From Paenibacillus dokdonensis (GTDB lineage: Bacteria; Bacillota; Bacilli; Paenibacillales; Paenibacillaceae): a stretch of DNA of 64,000 nucleotides. The position numbers and the translations under genes are program-made. The notes below the pieces were generated by a model. That model had not been told where the DNA came from and ran no database searches. It saw only the letters and a program-made list of their open reading frames with translations. Positions 1 to 12,121 of the stretch are shown here, piece by piece. How positions within the stretch are numbered: position 1 is the stretch's first letter; every line of letters begins with the position of its first letter. The stretch is from contig NZ_STGQ01000002.1 in the NCBI RefSeq assembly GCF_004916975.1, positions 558,001 to 622,000 on the forward strand, in the 5' to 3' direction.

Positions 1-41
1 ATAAATTATACCAGTCCATAGTGAATTCAATAAGTATGCAG

Positions 42-77
42 TAAAAAGACACTGAGATATTATTCATCAGTGTCTTC
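42..77 (-). terminator. Intrinsic terminator of the ABC-F gene
   Basis: A 10-bp perfect stem (46-55 with 67-76) with an 11-nt loop is followed on the minus strand by a run of five T. It lies just downstream of the ABC-F stop codon. Confidence 0.85.
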
Positions 78-114
78 TTTGGCCTTTTTCTACCGTCACC
101 ATGAGCGTTGCCGT

Positions 115-1854
115 TTAAAGCTGCTTTATGATGCCTTCCAGCTCGTCGGCCAAGCCTTTTGCCGTTTCAAAATCCGTATTCTTCAAAGCTAATTCGATCT
201 GCATTTCGACGGCCTTTTTCTTTTGTTCGTTTTCCAAATAGTCTTTATCAAAATGACTCGCGTAGATCATCTGTCTGAATTTGCGCATACTCATTTTTCT
301 AATCGTCTTGTCGTCAATGATTAGCACATAATCCATGCCGTTTACGACTGAATAGAAATCGTGGGAAATCATCAAAATCGCGCCTTTGTAGTCTTCGATG
401 GCTTTCTCCAGTGCAATCTGCGCATAGAGGTCCAAATGGCTGGTCGGTTCGTCAAGCAGCAGCAGGTCGGCTTGACTACCAGCGACTTTAGCCAGTTGAA
501 GCATGTTTTTTTCTCCACCGGATAATGATTGGATCTTCTGATCCAGGATTTCGTCTTCAAAGCCGTAATTCGCAAGATACGCTCTAATCTCGTCATACGT
601 TTTGAATCCTGCGTCGATGAATTCATTAAGAATCGTATTCGAGTCTTTTAGCGTTTCGTCTTGAAGCTGTGATAAATAAGCCACTTTCACATCTGCATTG
701 ATTTCGATGGAGTCATCGTTGTTTTTGAAGATTTCGCGGAGCAAAGTCGTTTTCCCTGTGCCGTTCGGGCCGATGATCGCGACTTTATCTGTAGATTGGA
801 TCTCGAAATTAACGTTGTGCAGAAGCAACTCGTCGAAGGCGACGCTGTAATTAGCAACCTTTATAACAGTGGCGTCTTCCCCTTCAAGGTCCAGATCAAA
901 ACGAATATTCGGCTGATTGATCTCGACAAACGGCGCTTTGATTCGGCGTGCTTCCAATCTTTCCTGAAACTTAACTCTGGCTTTTAACGCCCTTCCTCTA
1001 GACGCGTCTGCAACATTCGTTGCGATCTCTCTAAGATTATCGATGATGTGATCGTATCGCTCGATTTCTTCGGCTTCGGCGATCGCGATTTCTTGCAGCT
1101 CGATCTTGGTCTGAAGCAGCGAGAAGTTATAATCGATATACCGCCCATCAAACTCCTGGATCTCCATGTTTTCGAGGTGGATGATTTTATTGAAGCAATG
1201 ATTCAACAGATAGCGGTTGTGCGTAACGACCAGCAGCATGCCTTTATGGGAATTGATCAATTTTTTGAGCGCATTGAGGTTTTCAAAATCCAAAAACACG
1301 TCCGGTTCGTCCATGATCATTAAGTCCGGGCTGCCGAGCATTTCCTTCATAACTTGAATCAGCTTGAATTCCCCGCCGCTCAAGGAAGATACTCTGGCGT
1401 CTTTCAGCTTCATCAGATTGGCGAGATTCAGCTGCTTATTAATCGTGCTTTCGAAATCATCCCCGCCTATGGCATCGAGTTCGTCCAACGCCGATTGATA
1501 CTTTTCCATCAGCGAATCCATATCCGACGTGGTTTCCATCTCAGCATAAATCGCGGTGAGTTCGTCCTGGATCTTGATAAAGTCTTTCCCGATATATTCA
1601 AAAACGGTCATTTCTTTCGTTTTGTCCACCTGCGAGAACTGACTGACGTACCCGATTCTACAATCCGGGTCGATCTCCAGCTTGCCCTCGAACAAATGTC
1701 TTTCCGGGTCCAACAGCATCTCAATCAGTGTACTTTTCCCGCTGCCGCTCGTGCCGATAAAGGCGCAGTGTTGGCCTTCTTCGAGCGTGAAGGAAATGTT
1801 TTGATAGAGTTCTTTTTGCGGGAAAGAGAAGGATAGGTTATCTATTTTAATCAT
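115..1854 (-). CDS. ABC-F family ATPase (ribosome-associated, possible antibiotic-resistance type)
   Basis: Soluble protein of 579 residues with two ABC ATPase domains and no membrane segments, the ABC-F architecture. Domain 1 has Walker A GTSGSGKST (about residues 34-42) and signature SLSGGE. Domain 2 has Walker A GPNGTGKTT and signature SLSGGE followed by LLLDEPTSHLD. A charged helical linker joins them. ABC-F proteins act at the ribosomal E site, either as translation factors or as protection against antibiotics; the sequence alone does not say which. The ATG at 1854 is chosen because AGAAAGGT lies just upstream; an earlier in-frame ATG at 1878 lacks a ribosome binding site. The gene sits just beyond the outermost rlmH-type attachment repeat and ends in a strong terminator, so it may be cassette cargo or the first gene of the old chromosome. 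Confidence 0.85.
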   Translation of the reverse strand: MIKIDNLSFSFPQKELYQNISFTLEEGQHCAFIGTSGSGKSTLIEMLLDPERHLFEGKLEIDPDCRIGYVSQFSQVDKTKEMTVFEYIGKDFIKIQDELTAIYAEMETTSDMDSLMEKYQSALDELDAIGGDDFESTINKQLNLANLMKLKDARVSSLSGGEFKLIQVMKEMLGSPDLMIMDEPDVFLDFENLNALKKLINSHKGMLLVVTHNRYLLNHCFNKIIHLENMEIQEFDGRYIDYNFSLLQTKIELQEIAIAEAEEIERYDHIIDNLREIATNVADASRGRALKARVKFQERLEARRIKAPFVEINQPNIRFDLDLEGEDATVIKVANYSVAFDELLLHNVNFEIQSTDKVAIIGPNGTGKTTLLREIFKNNDDSIEINADVKVAYLSQLQDETLKDSNTILNEFIDAGFKTYDEIRAYLANYGFEDEILDQKIQSLSGGEKNMLQLAKVAGSQADLLLLDEPTSHLDLYAQIALEKAIEDYKGAILMISHDFYSVVNGMDYVLIIDDKTIRKMSMRKFRQMIYASHFDKDYLENEQKKKAVEMQIELALKNTDFETAKGLADELEGIIKQL

Positions 1855-2050
1855 GGTGTTACCTTTCTGAATCGCCATAACGGCGGGTATTGTGGGGTGC
1901 GCGGCAGCGTGTAAACTTAAGGTTGCCGATTTTCAGATTAACACTGTTTGGTGGGGAGTACAATTGATTTGTAGGTTTTACTCTTGCTTTGGAATTTCCT
2001 TCGCTAACTATTAGAGCTGAATTTGCTAAAGCCTCAAGGCTCCGAGTTTT

Positions 2051-2068
2051 TACTTGTGATATGGTTCA
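2051..2068 (-). repeat. rlmH-end attachment repeat, copy 4 (outermost)
   Basis: On the minus strand it reads GTGAACCATATCACAAGTA, matching the 3' end of rlmH (codons for E-P/H-Y-H-K and the start of the stop) with small differences; the GGGC that follows the stop in the other copies is replaced by AAA. It has the same orientation as the real rlmH end at 9851-9876. It marks the far edge of cassette 3. Confidence 0.7.
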
Positions 2069-2090
2069 CCGCGCTGTCTGTAACGGCAAG

Positions 2091-2126
2091 TTTTTTAGGG
2101 CCATCCTTTGCGAAATGGCCCTTTCT
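2091..2126. terminator. Bidirectional hairpin terminator in cassette 3
   Basis: Eight-base-pair stem AGGGCCAT/ATGGCCCT (2097-2104 with 2115-2122), flanked by TTTTTT on the left and TTTCTTT on the right, so it can work for either strand. Confidence 0.7.
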
Positions 2127-2175
2127 TTGATATCGATTTGTTCGACTATCGTTCGCCGTTAGCAGTGAAAGGATG

Positions 2176-2313
2176 CTACCATAAGAGCAACTCAATACTC
2201 CGGAAAGAGAGATCATCTGTAGAAAATTTCGCCCTACTTGTGATACGGTTCACCGTATCATCTACATAATGGCAAGGTGACTCCTTCTCGGAAGACATGT
2301 CAAACTCGCTCAT
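2176..2313 (-). CDS. Short ORF reading across the cassette 2/3 junction
   Basis: A 45-residue frame beginning at an ATG (2313) with an excellent AAGGAGGAG ribosome binding site 9-10 nt upstream. It reads through the attachment repeat at 2226-2251, so its last third is encoded by cassette 3. The part at the junction (VDDTVNRITS) resembles the end of another frame that crosses copy 4 (VTDSAVNHITS). The family is not recognised. The good binding site suggests translation. The chimeric tail suggests the native protein ended differently before the neighbouring cassette was acquired. Confidence 0.4.
   Translation of the reverse strand: MSEFDMSSEKESPCHYVDDTVNRITSRAKFSTDDLSFRSIELLLW
2226..2251 (-). 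repeat. rlmH-end attachment repeat, copy 3
   Basis: It matches the real rlmH end at 9851-9876 at 25 of 26 positions, including 11 bases beyond the stop codon (TAGGGCGAAAT). It has the same orientation and is embedded in a palindrome, TGATACGGT-GA-ACCGTATCA. No rlmH coding sequence precedes it. It is therefore a duplicated attachment site, not a gene copy. Confidence 0.85.
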
Positions 2314-2356
2314 ACAATCAACTCCTCCTTGTAGGACTACCCTCTTCTTAGGGATA

Positions 2357-2581
2357 TCATGGAAATAATTGTAATCTGTAATAAGAGGGAACACAAGCCA
2401 CAACACTTGAACCACCAATATCCTTTGATGTCCATGGAGTTAGGGAATTGCTCTTAACAACCTGGTTCTTTTCAGCTCCTTTATAATAATAATATCCCTC
2501 AGCAAATGACGAACTGGTTGAAGAAAAGGCCATAGAAATAGCAGCAATAGTAAATAACAATGTTCTTTTTGGTAATTTCAT
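2357..2581 (-). CDS. Small secreted peptide (signal peptide, possibly truncated)
   Basis: A 74-residue frame with a clear signal peptide: a KLPKR basic start, a hydrophobic core (about residues 8-20) and a probable cleavage site after SFA near residue 27. The short mature part starts EGYYYYKG. AAGGAGATT lies 8 nt before the ATG. The mature region is not recognised, and its end (after about residue 58) looks out of character, so a frameshift is possible. It follows the remains of another reading frame (2602-2850) by about 20 nt, suggesting a former two-gene unit in cassette 2. Confidence 0.5.
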   Translation of the reverse strand: MKLPKRTLLFTIAAISMAFSSTSSSFAEGYYYYKGAEKNQVVKSNSLTPWTSKDIGGSSVVACVPSYYRLQLFP

Positions 2582-2601
2582 AGTTTTTAATCTCCTTGAG
2601 T

Positions 2602-2850
2602 TTAGTCCTTAAGAGTTCCAGTACTATGAATGCTGTCGATATTATCTAAATCCGTATCAGTTAAAAATGGTTGTCCACAAGGAATCACAGCGATATCTTC
2701 TATATTCCCACTTGTAAGAGTAGCATCTATTATCCCCGATTAGGGTTATCTAATTGAAATAATACTTATCTTCACCATTAGCATGATTCATGTTAATATC
2801 AATTCTTCCATAGTATATTTCCCTTTCGAGTGATGTACATCAACCAGGAT
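2602..2850 (-). pseudogene. Decayed reading frame of unknown function
   Basis: Translation of the minus strand gives two coherent pieces in different frames. One reads GRIDINMNHANGEDKYYF and then a stop (near 2760-2825). The other begins DATLTSGNIEDIAV, runs about 41 codons and ends in TAA at 2602-2604. They look like neighbouring parts of one protein interrupted by a frameshift and stops. No start codon with a ribosome binding site is visible. The family is unknown. Confidence 0.4.
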
Positions 2851-2887
2851 ATGGACCTAGAAACTAATTATCCGAAATATTACAAAC

Positions 2888-5800
2888 CTATTGTTTATTG
2901 ATTGCTAAAAGTTCGTCAATTATTAAATCATTAGGTAAAACATACTTTTCCTCGTCGTAATTTTCGTCAATTCCGAGTATTAAACAATCGAATTTATGGA
3001 TTAACACTCTATAATGATTTATTCTCGCTAATTCCTTTCCTTTTCTTAACCATTCATTACCCTCACCTATTTCCAAACTCAGTAGAAATTTCGAGTAATA
3101 ATATATTGCTTCAATATAATAATATTTTATATGTTCCAAATTTTTAATTGCGTTTAGGTAGAAGCTTCTTGCGGACGCAGTATCATTTTCCAAAAAAGCA
3201 TACATTAATGATTTTAAACCTTGAGTATATGGATTTGTTACTACTAACTTATCCACAGTCTTCTTATCTATCTCTCCTAATTTTGCTTTTATATAATTAG
3301 TTTGCATTATTTCGGCGTATCGCTTTTTATATAAACTGCCTATGTATTCCTCAAGGCGGTCTTTATCTATTGAATTCGTATTATACTGTATTTCAAATAA
3401 ATAGAATTCGCCTTCGGTAATTTTCAAATCCAAAGACTTTGTGTACTCGCCTGCATGAAATAACATTGCAAATAAAAATTCAGGATAATCATAGCCTTTA
3501 CTAATAATTAATTTCCTTATTTCTCCGTAATTACTATAATTATATACATTCATTGCAGTAGACATTATTTTCTTTTCCAAAGGGACATTAATATCGAGTG
3601 AATATAATTTCTCAATTGGTAACAACTTTGATAATTCTATATAAGCATTTTCAAAGTCACCCGCATAATACCTTGAATTAATAATTAGACAACTCAAGTA
3701 CAGTTCAGCATTTTCAATATCACTGAAGTTATGCTTTATTTTCTCTAGTTTTTTATGAAATTCCTCAGCTTGTTCTGTAATATTAAAATAAATATCGATA
3801 CTATCAATATAGTCAAGTTTTTTACGCTTATCTCCTTCAAACTCGAATAAATAGTCTAGGCATTTCAAGTTATTTCCAATATTTTGATCAAACACTTGCA
3901 AGTGCCATGAATCCATCCCCTCTTTTCGAGAACGTAGCATTTCTATTAGATAAGCATTTAAATTAAATGCTCTTTGATAATAATCTATTTTTTCTTTGTC
4001 TGACCTCTTAAGAAATTCATGGCCAGCAAATCTACCTAAAATAGATTGAAGTTCTATGAAGCCCTTGTTTATTTCAATTAGAGATTTATTTTCTAGAGCA
4101 GTGATTTCTTTATCAGTTACCTTTTTAGAGTCCCATTTATATTCTCCTTGTGAAAAAAAAGCTCTTATATTATTCATGTGGATACCATCCGGAAATAATG
4201 ATAGTATCTCAAAAAGAAGCTTTTCATTTGGCAATAGTTTGTTAAATGAATAAGCTATGGATTGATATAAAGATTTCGAACGTTCGATATTAGCATCAAC
4301 TTTTCCATCGAAAATATCATTGTATCCCGCCTCAGTAATGGTGAAAAAATTAGTTTCAAGTTCATTTTTTAACTGGGTCATACTTTTAGTCTTTGGAATA
4401 TTTTTTGTTATTAATTTAATAGCAAGTGGATTGTTATTAAGTAATTTATCCAGAATCTCTTCCTTAAGTATTTTTGTATCAAACTCAGAAATTGCTGATT
4501 TATAATATTTGGTAAATAATTGGAATGCTTCTTCGTTTGTAAATGCTCTTAATTCGTGTCCTTCCTCAAATTCAAATCCAATCCATTCCCTTGAAGTAAT
4601 TACTACATTGGAGTAGTCGCATATAAAGGTTATTAGATTTTTTATTAAATCATTATCCTCAATATAAAGTAATGGCTCAAAATTATCTAAAATAATCAAT
4701 GCGTTTTTTCTCATGTTATTATCTGAAATATGATCCTTCAAATTTAATGAGCTATCTAAATCAAAACATTGTGCCAGTTTATATTCAAATGACTGATAGT
4801 TCTTAATAGACTCACAATCTATGAAATTAATCCCATCATTGAAATACCCTCTTGCATATAATTCTAACGCAACTTTTTTTACGATGGATGTTTTGCCTAT
4901 ACCACCAGACCCCTTTATTGTTAGTATCTGTTTAGTGGTATCTATTATTTTTCTAATAATATCTTCTAAGTCAGTTTTCCTACCAATAAAATTTATTAGA
5001 TTCTTTGCATCAATATTTTGAGATAATTTTACCTTTCCTTCCTCACTTAACATCTTAATTTTTGAATTGCCTTTGGTTAGTGAAGTAAGATTGAATAGAT
5101 CAATATTAATAATTTGACTCTTCTCATTAAGTAAATTCAATGATTTTTTTTGAAAAATTTTAAACACAAAACTGTTTAATTCATTTAGTAATAACAACGT
5201 GATTGGTAAAGTAATATTTTCTGAATCCAAGGATGGTTCTTTATCTACAAAAATAAACAGTCCTTTTAACTTTTCTATCATTAAATTCCCTTCAAATTCT
5301 TGAAGAGATATAAGCTTGCTTTTTAAATATTGATCTTCTATTAGTAGTTTATTTTTGATTATATTTGTAAAAACCAATATATAATCATAGTCTTCTATAT
5401 TATGAAGTGTATCAATTGATAAATGGAAACAATCAACTATTACGTTGTATTTAGCAAAGTATTTTAATACTTCTTCAAATGTGTACCTGTCCTCCCTATC
5501 TATTGGAGCACTTATTAATAGAGCAAATTTCATTTCTAACGGATAAGTTTTTTCTTTAATATCTGTAATGTTTCCTCCCTCATTAATTACCTCTATCGCT
5601 GCACTCGTTTGTAAGATATTTTCTTTAGCCTCAATTAGCTGATCAAAAAAAACTTCTATTTCACTCCAACTGTCAATTACTATAGATGATACACCATCAA
5701 AATTTGTGTTTTTATCAGTAGTTAGAAGATAATGATTTTTAGTATATCCTTTATAGATATTATAAATGTAATCAAATTGTTTTCTTACATACTCGTCTGA

Positions 5801-6376
5801 CAAACTAAACCCTATAAAAAGTATAGTGTGATCTGAAATCAAACTTCTCAACTTTTCAATTGCAGGAGTTTCGGAATAAAGCTCCTCATAATCATCTTGA
5901 AACAAAATGCATTTATCTGGACTTTCTATACATCCATGTAATTTTAGTATAAAATTATCAATTTCTGAGATGTTGGCTATATGATATGTATTGTCGAAAA
6001 CAATCTTTTTATACTTTGTAGCTTCTTCAAGAAGCCGGTCATAATTGGTAGTAATTATTTTAGACGAAACTCTACCTACCTTCTTATGAAGCTCAAGATT
6101 CATGTTATTCAAAGGTCTATCAATTTCTTTATCTAGAACACTATATATATCTTTTTTCTTATCTTTAATTTTATCTAGAACTTCTAAGGAACTAAACATA
6201 TTAGATGCTAACCCATCGATTAAAACTTGATACTTCGTTTCTTCTCTTGAGATTTCACTAAGTATTTTTGTGATAAGGCCGTTCCAATCAGGAAATCCTA
6301 GAGGTTTTGAAAAACCTGATCCTATGAATAAAATAAGCTTGTTTTTCTTCAATGCATCAATAATATGAGCGTTCAT
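2888..6376 (-). CDS. SIR2-NB-ARC STAND protein (putative single-gene antiphage NLR)
   Basis: A 1162-residue multidomain protein. Residues 1-250 are a SIR2-like NADase domain: GSGFSKPLG (19-27), TTNYD (109-113, candidate catalytic Asn), KLHG (145-148, candidate His) and IGFSLSD (188-194). Residues 281-400 form a second alpha/beta domain, possibly TIR-like, not firmly assigned. Residues 460-660 are an NB-ARC-type STAND ATPase: FIGR (463-466), Walker A GSGGIGKTS (489-497), Walker B LIILDN (560-565), TSRE sensor (594-597), NNPLAI (648-653). The remaining 500 residues are helical and may be a TPR-like sensor. In known SIR2-STAND systems such as Avs5, sensing of a phage protein triggers NAD depletion; that role is inferred here. 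It is a stand-alone gene, strongly AT-rich, with AAGGAGG 9 nt before its ATG. Confidence 0.85.
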   Translation of the reverse strand: MNAHIIDALKKNKLILFIGSGFSKPLGFPDWNGLITKILSEISREETKYQVLIDGLASNMFSSLEVLDKIKDKKKDIYSVLDKEIDRPLNNMNLELHKKVGRVSSKIITTNYDRLLEEATKYKKIVFDNTYHIANISEIDNFILKLHGCIESPDKCILFQDDYEELYSETPAIEKLRSLISDHTILFIGFSLSDEYVRKQFDYIYNIYKGYTKNHYLLTTDKNTNFDGVSSIVIDSWSEIEVFFDQLIEAKENILQTSAAIEVINEGGNITDIKEKTYPLEMKFALLISAPIDREDRYTFEEVLKYFAKYNVIVDCFHLSIDTLHNIEDYDYILVFTNIIKNKLLIEDQYLKSKLISLQEFEGNLMIEKLKGLFIFVDKEPSLDSENITLPITLLLLNELNSFVFKIFQKKSLNLLNEKSQIINIDLFNLTSLTKGNSKIKMLSEEGKVKLSQNIDAKNLINFIGRKTDLEDIIRKIIDTTKQILTIKGSGGIGKTSIVKKVALELYARGYFNDGINFIDCESIKNYQSFEYKLAQCFDLDSSLNLKDHISDNNMRKNALIILDNFEPLLYIEDNDLIKNLITFICDYSNVVITSREWIGFEFEEGHELRAFTNEEAFQLFTKYYKSAISEFDTKILKEEILDKLLNNNPLAIKLITKNIPKTKSMTQLKNELETNFFTITEAGYNDIFDGKVDANIERSKSLYQSIAYSFNKLLPNEKLLFEILSLFPDGIHMNNIRAFFSQGEYKWDSKKVTDKEITALENKSLIEINKGFIELQSILGRFAGHEFLKRSDKEKIDYYQRAFNLNAYLIEMLRSRKEGMDSWHLQVFDQNIGNNLKCLDYLFEFEGDKRKKLDYIDSIDIYFNITEQAEEFHKKLEKIKHNFSDIENAELYLSCLIINSRYYAGDFENAYIELSKLLPIEKLYSLDINVPLEKKIMSTAMNVYNYSNYGEIRKLIISKGYDYPEFLFAMLFHAGEYTKSLDLKITEGEFYLFEIQYNTNSIDKDRLEEYIGSLYKKRYAEIMQTNYIKAKLGEIDKKTVDKLVVTNPYTQGLKSLMYAFLENDTASARSFYLNAIKNLEHIKYYYIEAIYYYSKFLLSLEIGEGNEWLRKGKELARINHYRVLIHKFDCLILGIDENYDEEKYVLPNDLIIDELLAINKQ

Positions 6377-6408
6377 AAACTTCCGCCTCCTTAATGTTTC
6401 TTAATAGT

Positions 6409-6438
6409 ATTATAAATATTATTGTAAAAGATTAGCAA
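6409..6438 (-). promoter_or_regulatory. Promoter of the SIR2-NB-ARC gene
   Basis: Minus-strand TTGCTA (6433-6438), an 18-nt spacer and TATAAT (6409-6414), about 35 nt before the start codon. It sits between the attachment repeat and the gene, so the cassette brings its own promoter. Confidence 0.6.
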
Positions 6439-6451
6439 TTTCAATTTCTTT

Positions 6452-6473
6452 AGCCCTACTTATGATGCGGTTC
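6452..6473 (-). repeat. rlmH-end attachment repeat, copy 2
   Basis: On the minus strand it reads GAACCGCATCATAAGTAGGGC, differing from the real rlmH end by one base, in the same orientation. An inverted TAGGGC (6487-6492) faces its GCCCTA (6453-6458). It forms the junction between cassettes 1 and 2. Confidence 0.85.
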
Positions 6474-6904
6474 AGCTTAACAACTATAGGGCGAAAAAAA
6501 CCAGAGCACTAAACATTAGTTCCCTGATTTCGTGAAAAGGGGTTATGCGCGTGATGCTTAGGATGTTTGGGGAGGTGGCATAATTTAACATTCAGGATAC
6601 AAAATCTTGCCAATAGTCCAGATCGCACTGTTGTGAAGTTAACGCCACCCTCACTTGCATGTTAACACTTGGAGCCAGTCATCGAAATCATTTCTTTTCT
6701 ATATTCTAGTTGATATTTGAAAGAGAGACTACAAGTCAGAGCGTGCTTCATCGAAATATGAGGCATGTTAAATATCTGTAGCGACAGCTACTTTCGGGCG
6801 CTCTTGTCGTTAGTTGAGGGTGGATAACTCCAAGGAAATGAACAACCAAACTAACCTCCTCCAACATTTCTCGTTCTTTGCCGAAATTAGGGTGATGTTG
6901 ACGT
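6474..6904. other. Non-coding left part of cassette 1
   Basis: About 430 nt without a convincing gene. It holds the inverted repeat arm at 6487-6496 and a small hairpin (GTAGC-gaca-GCTAC near 6779). A 39-codon minus-strand frame near 6755-6875 has no clear family and may be a relic. Confidence 0.5.
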
Positions 6905-6933
6905 TTACTTACGAAATCATTCTACACTATAAT
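6905..6933 (+). promoter_or_regulatory. Promoter of the cassette-1 ATPase gene
   Basis: TTACTT (6905-6910), a 17-nt spacer and a perfect TATAAT (6928-6933). Transcription should begin near 6940, giving a leader of about 35 nt. Confidence 0.65.
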
Positions 6934-6974
6934 AATAGAATGATAGCATTTACATTATTAAGGAGCGAGTGCAA

Positions 6975-9398
6975 ATGTTGGGGGAAATAAAGACTATAAT
7001 TGAAAAAACAAATCCTAATAATGAAGCCTATAAATTTGGATTCATCAACGGTGAAGATAATAAATCTTATTATTTTGATAAATATTCTTTCCCACTTGAA
7101 AGTAACGGAATAAATAAATTTAGCAATGGAGATTCTATTACTTTTACGCCTGTTCGGTCAAATAAGAATAATGACCGCGCAGAAAACATATATCCCGCTA
7201 CAGTGAGTTTTACTATTAACGAAAAAAATTCACACACTGGGTCTGGGGAAATTCATTTCTTCAGAAAAGGCTTTGTAAAACATATAGCAAGGAATAAGTC
7301 TTCAGTATATACGCAGCATTTAAAGAAAGAAGCGAGAGAGGATGTAATACTAGATAAATTAAGTAATTTGTTATATGTGTCAAAAATTGATCATTTTGAT
7401 ATGGATAAAGGAGATCGTTATCCGTTTGCTCTGCTTGGAACTACAGAAATCTTGAAGAGATATGTGAGAGGGCAACGTGAATTTTTGTTGGTTTTTTCAC
7501 ATTTTGACAGTCGTGATTGGCAGGATAGAACATTGAAAGCAGAGCGTGAAATTAGGAAGTTAAAAGAAGTTGTCGACCGCAATCCCCTCCCCAATTTTTA
7601 CATGTTGGTCAGCAATGCTGATGGACTAAAAAATAGAATTGACGGTTCTATAAAAGGTAAACCAATGGCAGCAATAATTCCTTTTTCATTTGATGAAATA
7701 TTAGGATGCAAAACAAATGAGGCATTAAAAGACTTAATCTTAAATCGCTTTGCCGAATATCATTTCGAGAATAACATGTTGGGCGAAAGCACGGCTATCG
7801 AAGAAGATAATCTTCTATTTGGAGATCGCGGGAAAATTGCCGATGCAATTGTTGAGAGATGCCGCCAGGGTGGCAATTCCGGAATTTTTGGGCTAAGACG
7901 TAGTGGCAAAACATCGGTTCTTAACGCTTCGCTACGAAGGTTGGATAAAGAAAATATAAAATATATTAAAATAGAATCTCGTTCTGAATTGCAGAATTCC
8001 AGTTCGTGGAAGGCGGCTTTATATTTCATATCTCGCAGAATTAAAGAAAAAATCAACAATATGGAGCAACGTGTCGAAGAATCGTATACCGATTATTTGT
8101 CTAGATTAAAACTAAACCGAACTTTTGAGGATTTTTCAGAAAATGCATCTTTGAGTTTTGTAGAAGACGTTAAATTGTATTGCAGAGCTAACCACTCCTT
8201 TGTAATTGCAATAGATGAAATCGAACTAATTACATATAACACAGCAAGCACACAGGCATGGAAAAGTATGGAGGCTTACTGTGGTTTTTGGGGCGCCTTA
8301 AGAGATTGTGGTTGTTCCCTTATTATTTGTGGAGTGAATTCTGCAATTAATGAAATCAGTACAATAACGTTTGATGGTGTATCTGGAGATAATCCCATGT
8401 ATGAAAGGATAACGAGCTGTTCTGAGTCATATAAAACATATCTTCCGGCCTTTACAGATGAGCATACAAAACACATGATAAATACTCTTGGAGGATACAG
8501 CGACATTGGGTTTTCCAACGTATATCCTGCAATCAATAAATCTTTCGGAGGACAACCCTATGCTATCCGACAATTTTGTGCGTTTGTATTTGAAAATGTA
8601 AAATCAATGCGCACGCATACCGATACCTATGAGGTATCGCAAGCAACCGTGGACAATTTATTGATAAAATTCAACAGTTCGAATGCAGGAAGAAGTCTTT
8701 ATGAGACCGTTTTGCAACACGTTCGTACTTACTATAAAAACGAATATATAATTTTGGAAAAAATGGCCCTTTCCCCGCAAGCCTATAATTCAATTGGCGC
8801 TAGTGAGGTTCAAACGATTGACCATCTCGAAAAATATGGTTTGATTGAGTATGATCATGGAACATCCTTTGTTACATTCAAAATACACTCTATTCGTGAG
8901 TATCTATGCGAAGTTTGCACCAAAGATCCATTAACAATGGACAACGATGAACGAAGAAGATATGTGCAAGACTTCGTTGCAAATTTTGAGAAAAAACTTA
9001 AAACCCATATCTACACTTATTACAATATAACTGGAAAGGAACGAGAAGGGCGAAATATTCTGAAAAAATTTGTGACCGCTAATGAAAATTATGGAACTCG
9101 GCTAGACATAAACACTTGTAAATTTGAAGAGATATTTGAACATAAAAAGTTCATAATGTATTTTTCAAGCTTAAAAAAAATCATTAGTCTTAATTGGAAT
9201 TACCTTGGACAAAAATTTGAAAACATCAATATCAACAAAAACAGATTTCAGGTTTATATGGATGATTTGAATGCTGGAAGAACAGATGCAGATCATTATG
9301 ATGCTGAAGATATAGGTGTACACCCAACCTTGTGGGATATTAATGACGATACAATACAGCGTTTCCGAGTTGCTATGGAAGCCTTAAGCATATTTTAG
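6975..9398 (+). CDS. P-loop ATPase with cold-shock-like N-terminus and possible HEPN C-terminus (putative defence protein)
   Basis: An 807-residue protein. The first 75 residues (KFGFINGEDNKSYYF...NGDSITFTPV) resemble a cold-shock/OB nucleic-acid-binding fold. Residues 100-260 are an unassigned alpha/beta region. The ATPase core has an LFGDR lead-in (281-285), Walker A GLRRSGKTS (306-314) and Walker B FVIAIDE (409-415), as in AAA/STAND ATPases, followed by a probable winged-helix segment. Near the C-terminus NAGRTDADH (R769, H774) fits the R-x4-H motif of HEPN ribonucleases; this assignment is tentative. A role as an RNA-targeting defence ATPase is inferred from architecture and from its place in an SCC-like cassette. 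ATG at 6975 is preferred to GTG at 6969 because AAGGAG (6960-6965) is 9 nt away from the former and only 3 from the latter. Confidence 0.8.
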   Translation: MLGEIKTIIEKTNPNNEAYKFGFINGEDNKSYYFDKYSFPLESNGINKFSNGDSITFTPVRSNKNNDRAENIYPATVSFTINEKNSHTGSGEIHFFRKGFVKHIARNKSSVYTQHLKKEAREDVILDKLSNLLYVSKIDHFDMDKGDRYPFALLGTTEILKRYVRGQREFLLVFSHFDSRDWQDRTLKAEREIRKLKEVVDRNPLPNFYMLVSNADGLKNRIDGSIKGKPMAAIIPFSFDEILGCKTNEALKDLILNRFAEYHFENNMLGESTAIEEDNLLFGDRGKIADAIVERCRQGGNSGIFGLRRSGKTSVLNASLRRLDKENIKYIKIESRSELQNSSSWKAALYFISRRIKEKINNMEQRVEESYTDYLSRLKLNRTFEDFSENASLSFVEDVKLYCRANHSFVIAIDEIELITYNTASTQAWKSMEAYCGFWGALRDCGCSLIICGVNSAINEISTITFDGVSGDNPMYERITSCSESYKTYLPAFTDEHTKHMINTLGGYSDIGFSNVYPAINKSFGGQPYAIRQFCAFVFENVKSMRTHTDTYEVSQATVDNLLIKFNSSNAGRSLYETVLQHVRTYYKNEYIILEKMALSPQAYNSIGASEVQTIDHLEKYGLIEYDHGTSFVTFKIHSIREYLCEVCTKDPLTMDNDERRRYVQDFVANFEKKLKTHIYTYYNITGKEREGRNILKKFVTANENYGTRLDINTCKFEEIFEHKKFIMYFSSLKKIISLNWNYLGQKFENININKNRFQVYMDDLNAGRTDADHYDAEDIGVHPTLWDINDDTIQRFRVAMEALSIF

Positions 9399-9494
9399 TA
9401 ACAACGATTTCCCCGATTGTAAACTTAACTTGTTGATAAACTATCTTCAAAATTCAAACTACTATACAAACCTACTTACCTATTATTAGCGACA

Positions 9495-9632
9495 ATGTTT
9501 CAACCTCCCGTTCAAAACCCGCTCCTGAGGTCAGAGCGCGTCGCCATGAACGTACAAAAACATCCTGAGAATTATAAGAAAGTAACTGTTACAGGTAAAT
9601 TAAACCTAAATGATTTCGTTAATTGGCTCTAA
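9495..9632 (+). CDS. Short 45-codon ORF downstream of the cassette-1 ATPase
   Basis: An in-frame ORF from ATG 9495 (or an internal ATG at 9546 giving 28 residues) to TAA at 9630-9632. The C-terminal half (HPENYKKVTVTGKLNLNDF) has the look of a real protein segment, but no good ribosome binding site precedes either ATG. It may be the remnant of a larger gene lost from the cassette. Family not recognised. Confidence 0.3.
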   Translation: MFQPPVQNPLLRSERVAMNVQKHPENYKKVTVTGKLNLNDFVNWL

Positions 9633-9693
9633 CCCATCCCATCCAGATTAGCCCCGAGCAATTCTTTTGTTAGCGACAGTGCCACGTAATTTA

Positions 9694-9734
9694 AAATGAA
9701 CCAAGCCATCATCCCGGGTGGCTTTGGTTCATTT
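9694..9734. terminator. Long bidirectional hairpin
   Basis: AAATGAACCAAGCCA (9694-9708) pairs with TGGCTTTGGTTCATTT (9719-9734) around a CCCGGG-containing loop, with one bulge. It separates the cassette-1 gene from the tmRNA fragment and rlmH and can stop transcription from both sides. Confidence 0.65.
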
Positions 9735-9795
9735 CGCATTCCCGATTTATCCCAATAATAGTAATTCATAACCTCAAGGTTGTGGATTTACCATA

Positions 9796-9845
9796 TGGAG
9801 GCGAGGGGAGTTGAACCCCTGTCCGAAGATTACACCACAAACTTG
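9796..9845 (-). pseudogene. ssrA: tmRNA (ssrA) 3'-end fragment
   Basis: The minus strand carries TCTTCGGACAGGGGTTCAAC, then the complementary T-stem arm CCCCT and the acceptor strand CGCCTCCA. This is the T-arm and 3' acceptor half of a tmRNA. The T-stem (AGGGG/CCCCT) and loop TTCAACT are intact. Only about 50 nt are present, since rlmH lies directly upstream, and the terminal CCA is incomplete (CCATATG). The 3' end of ssrA is a common integrase target, so this is most simply a relic attachment site carried inside cassette 1 rather than a functional gene. Confidence 0.7.
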
Positions 9846-9850
9846 AAATA

Positions 9851-9876
9851 ATTTCGCCCTACTTATGATACGGTTC
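9851..9876 (-). repeat. rlmH-end attachment repeat, copy 1 (native site)
   Basis: The final codons of rlmH (E-P-Y-H-K-stop) plus TAGGGCGAAAT beyond. This is the position used by Ccr recombinases to insert SCC elements in staphylococci. Three further copies in the same orientation lie at 6452, 2226 and 2051. Confidence 0.85.
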
Positions 9877-10338
9877 CCCCCGATTTATCTTCACCGCGCG
9901 ATAAATCTGCTCGGTCAGCACCAGCCGCATCAGCTGATGCGGCAGCGTCATGCGCCCGAAGCTCAGCTTCTGCTGGGCGCGGCGCAGCACCTGATCGGAG
10001 AGCCCGTGGCTCCCTCCGATCACGAACACGACATGGCTCGTCCCGTACGTGCCGAGCTTGTCGAGTTCGGCAGCCAGCTCTTCCGAGCTCCACAGCTGGC
10101 CGCCGATGGCGAGCGCGACCACATGCGCGCTCTCTTTGACATGCGCGAGAATGCGTTCGCCCTCGCGCTCCTTTACGATCGACACCTCGGCTTCGCTCAA
10201 GGTGTCCGGAGCTTTCTCGTCCGCGACCTCGATCATCTGGAATTTGATGTACGGGGTCAGCCGCTTGGCGTATTCCTGGATGCCCTGCACCAAATACTTC
10301 TCTTTCAGCTTGCCGACGCCAATCAATTGAATCAACAT
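9859..10338 (-). CDS. rlmH: 23S rRNA (pseudouridine1915-N3)-methyltransferase
   Basis: RlmH of 159 residues, the usual length for this SPOUT methyltransferase (orfX in staphylococci), which methylates pseudouridine 1915 in helix 69 of 23S rRNA. It shows the conserved [10 protein letters not shown] region and the C-terminal [12 protein letters not shown]...RGEPYHK signature. The ATG at 10338 is chosen because GGAGGA lies 9 nt upstream; an in-frame ATG at 10359 has no site. The reading frame is intact despite insertion of SCC-like cassettes exactly at its stop codon, as these elements restore the gene end. Confidence 0.97.
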
Positions 10339-10530
10339 GTTCGTATGTCCTCCGTTCATGAAACCTTGATATGTACTGTATTATGGGAAGCTCCGTTGCC
10401 TTCCATCCCTGTCCATCCGGGGCTACTTGGAATAGGCCAATTCTTCTTCCTCTTATTTTTATTTTCATGTTCCTGATCCCTTGCCCGCAAAAACCACGGA
10501 TATCGACATCCCGCACTTCCATGGCAATTA

Positions 10531-10555
10531 AAAAGGAGCGTGCTCCCACGCTCCC
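10531..10555 (-). terminator. Intrinsic terminator of the CxxH/CxxC gene
   Basis: Stem GGAGCGTG/CACGCTCC (10535-10542 with 10547-10554), followed on the minus strand by TTTTTAATT. Confidence 0.8.
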
Positions 10556-10577
10556 CTGTTACCTTATGCTTTTGTGG

Positions 10578-10745
10578 TTATACGACCAGAAACTTGCCGG
10601 CCTGCTCACAGTGTGCGCACTGCACAGGCGGATCCCAATCAGAAAACTCTGTATCCTTCAGATCCACAACGTCCGGAGCATCCTCGTATTCGTCCACAAA
10701 CATATCAATGGCAAGCTCCAAATGTTCTTTGCATACTACATACAT
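10578..10745 (-). CDS. CxxH/CxxC zinc-ribbon-like small protein
   Basis: A 55-codon gene. The protein begins MYVVCKEHLELAIDMFVDEY and carries C5-x-x-H8 near its start and C-A-H-C near its end, a likely single zinc site. This matches the small CxxH/CxxC protein family found between htrA and rlmH in Bacillales (YyzF-like). Function is unknown. The ATG at 10745 has a weak AGAAGGGA site about 10 nt upstream, and a terminator follows. Confidence 0.85.
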   Translation of the reverse strand: MYVVCKEHLELAIDMFVDEYEDAPDVVDLKDTEFSDWDPPVQCAHCEQAGKFLVV

Positions 10746-10873
10746 AAATGAAAGCATCCCTTCTAACGTTGCACACGGTTGTCATAAGTCCATCTTTTGC
10801 AAAAATCTAAATTCCTACTCAAATTATAGCTCTTTTTCGACATTTTCGCACATCTGTTTTTCTGATGTTATCT

Positions 10874-12121
10874 TTATTGATCCGGCTTTTCCGCCAGCTT
10901 CACGTTCGTCGTTTGTTCCTTGCCACCACGGTAGAAGGTAACCTTTACGGTATCGCCGATTTTGACTTTATCATACAGGAATTTCTTCATTTCCAGTGTT
11001 GTCGTAATCGGATCATCGTTAAATTTCACGATGACGTCATTAAGCTTCAGACCAGCCTCCTGCGCCGGACCAATGGCATCCAGCACCACGACTCCGTCTT
11101 TCACATCGCTTGGCAGCTTCAGCTCCTTGAGCTGATCCTCATCCATTTGGGCATACGGGTTACCGAGATCCATGGAGTAAATGCCGATATACGGGCGGGC
11201 AATCTTGCCATGTGTCATCAGCTCATCGACCGTCTTCATCACTTGTTCCACAGGAATGGCAAAGCCCAATCCCTCTACACCGGCATCCGCAATCTTCATC
11301 GTGTTAATGCCGATGACTTTTCCGTTCAGATCGACAAGCGCTCCGCCGCTGTTGCCTTCATTGATTGCCGCATCGGTCTGGATAACCTCCTGCTCCCAGT
11401 CATATATACCATCCTGGTTCAGGGATACGGGCACAATACGGTTCGTGTAGCTTACAATACCGGAAGTCAGTGTGTCACCAAGTCCAAGCGGATTGCCGAT
11501 CGCAAACACCGTTTCCCCAAGCCGCAGCTTGCCGGAGTCGCCCATTTCCGCTACCTCATTAATATCTTTATCGTTGACTGCCAGCACGGCGATGTCATTC
11601 ACCTTATCTGCGCCGACGAGCTTAGCTTTTTTCATCTCACCATTTACCAACACCACTTCGAGCTCCTGTGAGCCTTCAATAACGTGGTTGTTCGTAATCA
11701 CAAAGGCCTGACCCTGGTCTTTTTTGAAAATAACTCCTGATCCCAGAGCCGAATCCTCCAGACTGGTCTTATCCTTCTTGGCGTCCTTGTAATTCACAAT
11801 GCTTACTACGGTAGGGCGTACTTTGGCTGCAGCCGTTACTAATCTGTCATAAGGATCGGCGTTACTGTCCAGCTGCTTGGAATTGATGGCGCTAACTGCG
11901 ACCGCTTCTTTCCCGGAGGAAGGCAGCCCCGTGATCATACTGAACAACAGCACAGCCACAAATGCGCTGATGACCGAGCTGATCGTAGCGACCTGAAGCG
12001 TGGACATCCCCCGGCTGCGCCTGGATCTCGGCCAGACTTCCTGCGCCTTGCCAGCTTTGCGGAGTCCGCGTTCGCGCTTCGTCACTTTGGTCGAATAAAA
12101 ATCGTCTTGAAACAGCCCCAT
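10874..12121 (-). CDS. htrA: HtrA/DegP-like membrane-anchored serine protease
   Basis: A 415-residue S1C protease for quality control of secreted proteins. A basic cytoplasmic N-terminus (about 40 residues) is followed by one membrane helix (about 42-65), a trypsin-like domain with the triad in TNNHVIEG (His), VNDIAVLAV (Asp) and GNSGGALV (Ser), and one C-terminal PDZ domain (about 310-410). Corresponds in position to yyxA/htrC of Bacillus, next to walJ. GGGGAGAGGA precedes the ATG. In Bacillus such genes answer to CssRS secretion stress, but no CssR box was identified here. Confidence 0.93.
   Translation of the reverse strand: MGLFQDDFYSTKVTKRERGLRKAGKAQEVWPRSRRSRGMSTLQVATISSVISAFVAVLLFSMITGLPSSGKEAVAVSAINSKQLDSNADPYDRLVTAAAKVRPTVVSIVNYKDAKKDKTSLEDSALGSGVIFKKDQGQAFVITNNHVIEGSQELEVVLVNGEMKKAKLVGADKVNDIAVLAVNDKDINEVAEMGDSGKLRLGETVFAIGNPLGLGDTLTSGIVSYTNRIVPVSLNQDGIYDWEQEVIQTDAAINEGNSGGALVDLNGKVIGINTMKIADAGVEGLGFAIPVEQVMKTVDELMTHGKIARPYIGIYSMDLGNPYAQMDEDQLKELKLPSDVKDGVVVLDAIGPAQEAGLKLNDVIVKFNDDPITTTLEMKKFLYDKVKIGDTVKVTFYRGGKEQTTNVKLAEKPDQ

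Follow-up and report, generated by a model that had tools for sequence, protein, structure and literature searches.

Why does the 3' end of rlmH recur, always in the same orientation, in the DNA beside that gene in a Paenibacillus genome? We addressed this question in a stretch of 64,000 nucleotides (hereafter, the window; contig 2:558001-622000) from a 6.48-Mb genome in five contigs. The original prediction had placed same-orientation copies of the rlmH end at 6452, 2226 and 2051 and read them as the borders of three cassettes resembling SCC. The copies themselves proved real. Within the window, GAACCGTATCATAAGTAGGG was found on the minus strand at 9857-9876 (the rlmH end, exact), 6454-6473 (one mismatch) and 2232-2251 (one mismatch), giving three copies at zero to one mismatch compared to 0.00 expected from shuffles. 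Over 26 bases, the copy at 2226 matched the rlmH end at 25 positions, as predicted, and the copy at 6448 at 23. A fourth copy (2050-2067) is weak as a bare 20-mer (five mismatches in 20) and is preceded by a full arm, TTGCCGTTACAGACAGCGCGG, that is present in many other genomes.

To delimit the array, we used a position model of the site derived from 51 internal sites, all from other genomes (this genome excluded). Across the 90 kb scanned, the model identified 12 sites of at least 30 bits in contig 2:516366-567859 (51.5 kb), all on the rlmH strand. Only the last four fall in the window, with eight further sites to its left, out to contig 2:516366 (about 41.6 kb left). In ten Markov control sequences of 53 kb the top score was 2.3 bits, and no site of at least 8 bits was found in window 12001-64000. 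Weaker scores in the 90 kb were 16.1 bits at 492649, 10.6 bits at 529349 (a degenerate site) and 9.6 bits on the opposite strand over the 516366 site, while opposite-strand copies with four mismatches (contig 2:515098 and 533349) lie outside the scored sites. The 12 sites bound 11 intervals, the shortest 166 bp long and the longest 18.2 kb. SCC-like cassettes bounded by direct repeats and arranged head to tail at rlmH outside Staphylococcus were thus recovered as predicted, with the exception of their number, as position 2051 is not the end of the array. The features in and next to the window are as follows.

9859-10359, minus strand: rlmH, 166 aa, ending E-P-Y-H-K-stop (Pfam SPOUT_MTase, 192.8 bits)
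9859-9876, minus strand: site 1, chromosomal attachment-like core within the rlmH end (exact match; 31.8 bits)
6474-9858: cassette 1, 3385 bp, GC 36.6%, lying between sites 1 and 2
6975-9398, plus strand: cargo of cassette 1, an 807-aa P-loop ATPase of unassigned function (Pfam AAA_14, 29.2 bits; cut-off 27)
6456-6473, minus strand: site 2 (site model, 50.1 bits)
2252-6455: cassette 2, 4204 bp, GC 29.4%, lying between sites 2 and 3
2888-6376, minus strand: cargo of cassette 2, a defence-like 1162-aa SIR2 and NB-ARC (STAND) protein (Pfam, PADLOC, PDB)
2234-2251, minus strand: site 3 (site model, 45.5 bits)
2068-2233: interval 3, a 166-bp spacer without a gene, lying between sites 3 and 4
2050-2067, minus strand: site 4 (site model, 34.0 bits)
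1-2049: window part of cassette 4, which starts 48 bp before position 1
115-1878, minus strand: cargo of cassette 4, a 587-aa protein with two ABC ATPase domains (Pfam ABC_tran, two stretches), which we take from its domain layout to be of ABC-F type
Contig 2:516384-557933: seven more intervals left of cassette 4

No match at gathering score was obtained with Rfam in window 1-11000, and a scan of window 1-12000 with ARAGORN was likewise negative for genes. On the minus strand at window 9796-9824 (homology 9791-9856), ~30 bp inside cassette 1 and beside the rlmH site, is a sequence that copies the 3' end of tmRNA (ssrA). The genuine tmRNA lies at contig 2:815505-815868, with a further partial copy at 827591. 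Many genomes of the genus have repeated tmRNA-end copies on one strand, which looks as if ssrA may serve as a second island site.

The sites share a defined anatomy. Internal sites combine the rlmH-end core with arms of their own, for example TTGCCGTTACAGACAGCGCGG or TTCGCTCTATAGATGATACGGT with opposite arms GGCAAG or GGCGAA, and the arms form inverted repeats around the core (TTGCCGTTA... with ...GGCAA; TTCGCC... with ...GGCGAA). The core contains TATCATAA, which is given as the motif of SCC and of the Enterococcus cassette chromosome (ECC) in the available text of PMC6222049. In 1.12 Mb, the 17-base arm TTGCCGTTACAGACAGC occurred 22 times and was followed at fixed spacing by a core with at most one mismatch in 20 cases (18 with the exact degenerate pattern and two with one mismatch; the other two cores are degenerate). 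A core likewise followed a second arm at fixed spacing in nine of ten cases, and both copies of arm D. Across 31 regions we found 132 sites (none in two regions), with 57 of the 132 left arms unclassed, and every one of the 25 regions with at least two sites had a single orientation. The prefilter used for these regions picks up 10 of the 12 sites in this genome, and a looser scan recovers all 12.

The same site is widespread in the genus. The exact degenerate pattern had 648 matches in 100 genus genomes compared to six for the reversed pattern, and the matches cluster near rlmH in the genomes looked at. Per genome, the median was five and the maximum 18, with at least two exact sites in 95, at least five in 54 and at least ten in 26 of the 100 genomes; in these counts one match is normally rlmH itself and arms were not required. 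Across the order, 198 genomes were searched with a slightly wider pattern and 189 had a match. This genome has 15 exact matches in total. It also has secondary sites far from rlmH, four of them within 6 kb at contig 1:2546631-2552448 and a lone one at 2645663 (L050 and L051); some of the upstream flanks of these secondary sites look like a worn rlmH end. In principle the repeats might be fixed and immobile, for instance as terminators or members of a REP-like family, and some right arms do lead into T-rich stretches. This explanation is extremely improbable given the excess over the reversed pattern, the proximity to rlmH and the different content between the flanks in different genomes. Chance and fixed repeats were both rejected based on the shuffles, the site-model controls, the census and the flank comparisons described below.

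We next consider what the cassettes carry. The original prediction of single-gene, defence-like cargo applies to the two rlmH-proximal intervals, which do hold one large STAND or P-loop gene each, and it does not extend to the rest of the array because interval 3 has no gene and the next interval leftward encodes an ABC ATPase. The cassette 2 protein had Pfam SIR2_2 and NB-ARC above cut-off, a PADLOC match to ThsA across the SIR2 part (91.7 bits) and PDB matches to KomC and ThsA. The cassette 1 ATPase had no match in PADLOC, including its defence models, or in PDB. Single-gene ABC cassettes similar to cassette 4 are present in two other genomes (G035 and G072). Continuing outward from rlmH, the interval after cassette 4 encodes AraC and GyrI/Cass2 proteins (the latter at contig 2:556963-557835; Pfam describes Cass2 as an integron-associated effector binding protein) and the next interval a short-chain dehydrogenase. 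It is followed by an 11.5-kb interval (HTH-cupin, metallo-lactamase-fold, alpha/beta hydrolase and a second double-ABC protein), an HTH regulator, MerR with nitroreductase, and dehydrogenase with DJ-1 and WYL; the farthest interval, of 18.2 kb, encodes a transposase, dehydrogenases, hydrolases and a beta-lactamase-family protein.

Among the frames scanned, cargo beyond the spacer is thus mostly ABC, dehydrogenase, hydrolase and regulator genes, in mixed orientation (23 versus 20 frames). When PADLOC was applied to 22 array proteins, the SIR2 domain of the 2888-6376 gene was the one informative match, and the others had no match or generic ABC/ATPase, HTH or WYL matches. On the basis of the proteins scanned, the idea that the locus as a whole is a defence island was therefore rejected. 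GC content was 36.6% and 29.4% in the two rlmH-proximal intervals, 44-47% in the other nine and 47.6% in window 12001-64000. A polarity with the newest cassettes nearest to rlmH was unsupported (rank versus GC, rho 0.15, p 0.13); site score drops weakly with rank from rlmH (rho -0.19, p 0.047).

If the array were immobile, close relatives might carry the same sequence at the same place, a possibility raised with the original prediction. Compared to the nearest relative (G072; rlmH protein 99% identical), only 18% of the array aligned, whereas the rlmH side did so over its full length (100%) and the far flank over 69%, so this comparison does not refute the prediction. The rlmH locus is variable between species, with block variation between conserved flanks. 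For G056 and G057 (rlmH 96.2% identical), no common block of at least 200 bp was present between a point immediately after the rlmH core and one 60 bp beyond the final, degenerate G056 site, from which the two genomes align at 95.4%; G057 has about 39 kb between the flanks, with one recognised site besides rlmH and none at the far junction. For G052 and G047 (rlmH 97.4%), the sequences part after the core and blocks of 98-99% return from G052 position 3042, ~3 kb after rlmH. These returning blocks fall within the last-but-two interval of G047, where they are 3 kb away from a site. G047 also has another insert, of ~4 kb, whose end is 38 bp beyond a site, and this is the sole resumption near a site in this pair. 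Three other pairs are weak tests, with little in common: G054 and G085 (rlmH 91.7%; alignment restarts 50 bp past a G054 site), G047 and G083 (rlmH and two blocks) and G052 and G083 (rlmH alone). We looked for an empty site in G004, G014, G076, G082 and G092, each of which has one exact site, and found no useful far flank in common; the site model adds a further site in G004, G082 and G092.

Cassettes also recur between species. Among 93 site-bounded cassettes, we found 23 pairs in which at least half of one member was covered. Two are near-complete matches between this genome (G000) and G035, namely the AraC/GyrI cassette (88-89% covered, 75.9% identical) and the ABC cassette (84-85% covered, 78.0% identical). 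Most other common sequence consists of blocks within larger intervals, and several blocks begin at least 100 bp from a site or sit inside such intervals. An 1812-bp block is 91.9% identical at the nucleotide level between G000 and G014, a distant species, compared to 72.7% for rlmH; it is directly past rlmH in G014, and in G000 it lies 63 bp from a site and ends beside a four-mismatch site at 535986. A 99.0% block is present twice within the G047 array.

Could homologous recombination account for this variation? DNA uptake and RecA would then swap whole arrays between the conserved rlmH and far flanks, the sites having been made by Ccr long ago. Replacement of the whole region between conserved flanks would look alike, and the scattered 98-99% blocks in G052 and G047 fit such exchange. 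Blocks of 92% identity in a species with rlmH only 73% identical, together with block ends near sites in several cases, argue against it, and we consider this explanation rather improbable.

The enzyme is the next question. A PF07508 search of this genome identified two large serine recombinases (LSRs), both on contig 1, which scored 69.5 and 119.4 bits with CcrB, about the same as with XisF, and no Ccr was found by this search or with the CcrB model at 1e-50. In the array, CcrB-like sequence amounts to a 45-residue stretch (contig 2:530735-530866) that shares 44% identity with the C-terminal end of the CcrB-like protein of G072 (E 1e-4) and an 18-residue match over the rlmH end; the 45-residue stretch is perhaps the remnant of a lost Ccr element. 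The predicted lack of a recombinase thus applies to this genome and is unsupported for the clade, as shown by G072. Between a site at 574462 and rlmH, G072 encodes a 499-aa protein (no match in the searches made), RadC, DUF960 and two LSRs of 547 and 549 aa, with 251.8 and 436.7 bits for CcrB, 230.9 and 338.5 for CcrC, and 128.8 and 151.4 for XisF, all of them under the curated Ccr cut-offs. The second LSR is 45.9% identical over 440 residues to a CcrB-type Staphylococcus simiae protein, and the CcrB-like protein is 43-46% identical to staphylococcal proteins. With a Ccr-type pair, SCC-core genes and sites on both sides, located beside rlmH, this G072 element is SCC-like.

In the 100 genus genomes, 35 matched the CcrB model at 1e-50. 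Most arrays have no visible enzyme, as the other 65 genomes had no match. A strong CcrB-like gene (at least 367 bits, a threshold set after seeing the score list) was present in 13, and in 12 of these the best match is no more than 22 kb from rlmH (the exception, G009, has it on a separate contig). Genomes with a strong Ccr had more sites (median of nine versus four, p 0.011, uncorrected for kinship). From a scan of named genomes, 78 CcrB-like loci were kept out of 167 relatives, including Bacilli and Clostridia; 67 of the 78 had the core (reversed control, 0) and 35 had a whole or partial rlmH. Among short loci of equal kind, a site was present in 4 of 15 strong-match loci compared to 0 of 15 weaker ones. 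In a FastTree phylogeny of 61 recombinases (43 of the 78 loci, hand-picked, plus others; rooted on one LSR of this genome; without support values), two Staphylococcus proteins fall among the CcrB-like locus proteins. In four Bacillaceae-type loci (L256, L257, L259 and L261), two rlmH copies flank a Ccr-like gene, and rlmH 3'-end copies or a broken rlmH lie within or between cassettes in G007, G022, G060 and G073 (L060, L063, L111 and L064).

These results bear on a second alternative, in which the array is a decayed composite SCC: a few Ccr-bearing elements in tandem would have been eroded by deletion and IS activity, leaving small cassettes that never moved by themselves. The CcrB-like stretch and the transposase in the 18.2-kb interval, the degenerate site at 529349 and the many array genomes without Ccr are all in keeping with decay. 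We nonetheless regard it as unlikely, because near-complete small cassettes (AraC/GyrI and ABC) recur between their own sites in G000 and G035, and because at least ten exact sites in 26 of 100 genomes are many for mere leftovers.

Instead, the locus is likely an SCC-like cassette array with the rlmH end as the attachment site for Ccr-type recombinases, and is best read as a cassette-rich, recombinase-poor relative of SCC. In the proposed mechanism, the final codons of rlmH, which contain the TATCATAA motif, would be the chromosomal attachment site for Ccr-type LSRs, and each cassette would bear a hybrid site composed of its own arm, the core and the opposite arm. Insertion at rlmH would leave the gene intact and a site on both sides, so that cassettes would stack head to tail. 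Most cassettes, having no recombinase, would be mobilised in trans by a complete Ccr-bearing element whenever the genome has one, as G072 does; the 11 intervals of this genome are probably parked, because it now has no Ccr gene. We infer that Ccr would catalyse the recombination, through circular forms and in trans, with some route between cells. With regard to phage carriage, two exact arm-core patterns had 0 matches in viral_contigs, which excludes little.

More broadly, it is quite possible, and we propose it tentatively, that Paenibacillales run an integron-like serine-recombinase system, in which a pool of small, mostly recombinase-less cassettes is stocked both at rlmH itself and at secondary sites that copy its 3' end, to be reshuffled by rare Ccr elements, and that staphylococcal SCC is a specialised offshoot of a system found across Bacillota. 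SCC elements carry methicillin resistance in staphylococci. If soil Paenibacillales do store ccr-less cassettes in long rows at the gene and core that SCC uses, they may be a reservoir, and their arrays would be a natural model of mobilisation in trans. The DNA between rlmH-end copies is also a simple route to accessory genes.

Among known systems, the closest are SCC elements, including composite and ccr-less (pseudo-SCC) forms such as SCCmecC2865, which target the rlmH 3' end as this array does (PMC8407400, in the portion available). The 18-bp SCC site is GAAGCATATCATAAATGA, compared to GAACCGTATCATAAGTAG in this genome; tandem cassettes and ccr-less units are also alike, as is DUF960 in the G072 element. 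Of the features that define SCC strictly, this locus has a site within the rlmH 3' end, 12 direct repeats with the TATCATAA-type core and inverted-repeat arms, and its genome has no ccr recombinase genes; it is a ccr-less SCC-like array and not an SCC element in the strict sense. Twelve sites in one array, mixed cargo and a genome without any ccr set it apart from SCC. ECC shares the rlmH target, the TATCATAA motif, inverted-repeat arms, two large serine recombinases, DUF960 and variable cargo. According to the sections available of PMC6222049, ECC has fewer than five att matches per genome and elements of 21-78 kb with ccrAB, whereas the genus genomes here have up to 18 exact matches each, mostly without Ccr.

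Composite islands downstream of rlmH, with rlmH-end repeats and large serine recombinases, have been described in Bacillota including Paenibacillus pinistramenti (PMC10061031). They occupy one sentence of this 2023 primase paper, whose accessible text includes neither a census nor ccr-less cassettes, and its P. pinistramenti contig was recovered in our CcrB-like locus scan (L195). A full-text literature search, with preprints and most subscription papers outside its coverage, turned up ECC and the P. pinistramenti note, and among the titles and abstract openings listed none described ccr-less cassettes arrayed throughout a genus. Islands resembling SCC are thus already in print for bacteria other than staphylococci, including one in Paenibacillus, and the new part is the scale of the arrays.

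In chromosomal integrons, too, small gene cassettes are lined up with a copy of the recombination site between one and the next, and the recombinase lies apart from them. The array resembles integrons in its rows of small cassettes and in one protein matching the 'integron-associated' Pfam family Cass2. It differs in that the Ccr-type enzyme is a serine recombinase and that of integrons a tyrosine recombinase, IntI, which uses attI and folded attC sites where the array has repeats of the rlmH end, as well as in the rlmH target, in intervals that range from 0.17 to 18.2 kb and in the mixed orientation of its frames, which in an integron would be uniform. By analogy, the array would work like a composite SCC while being laid out like an integron.
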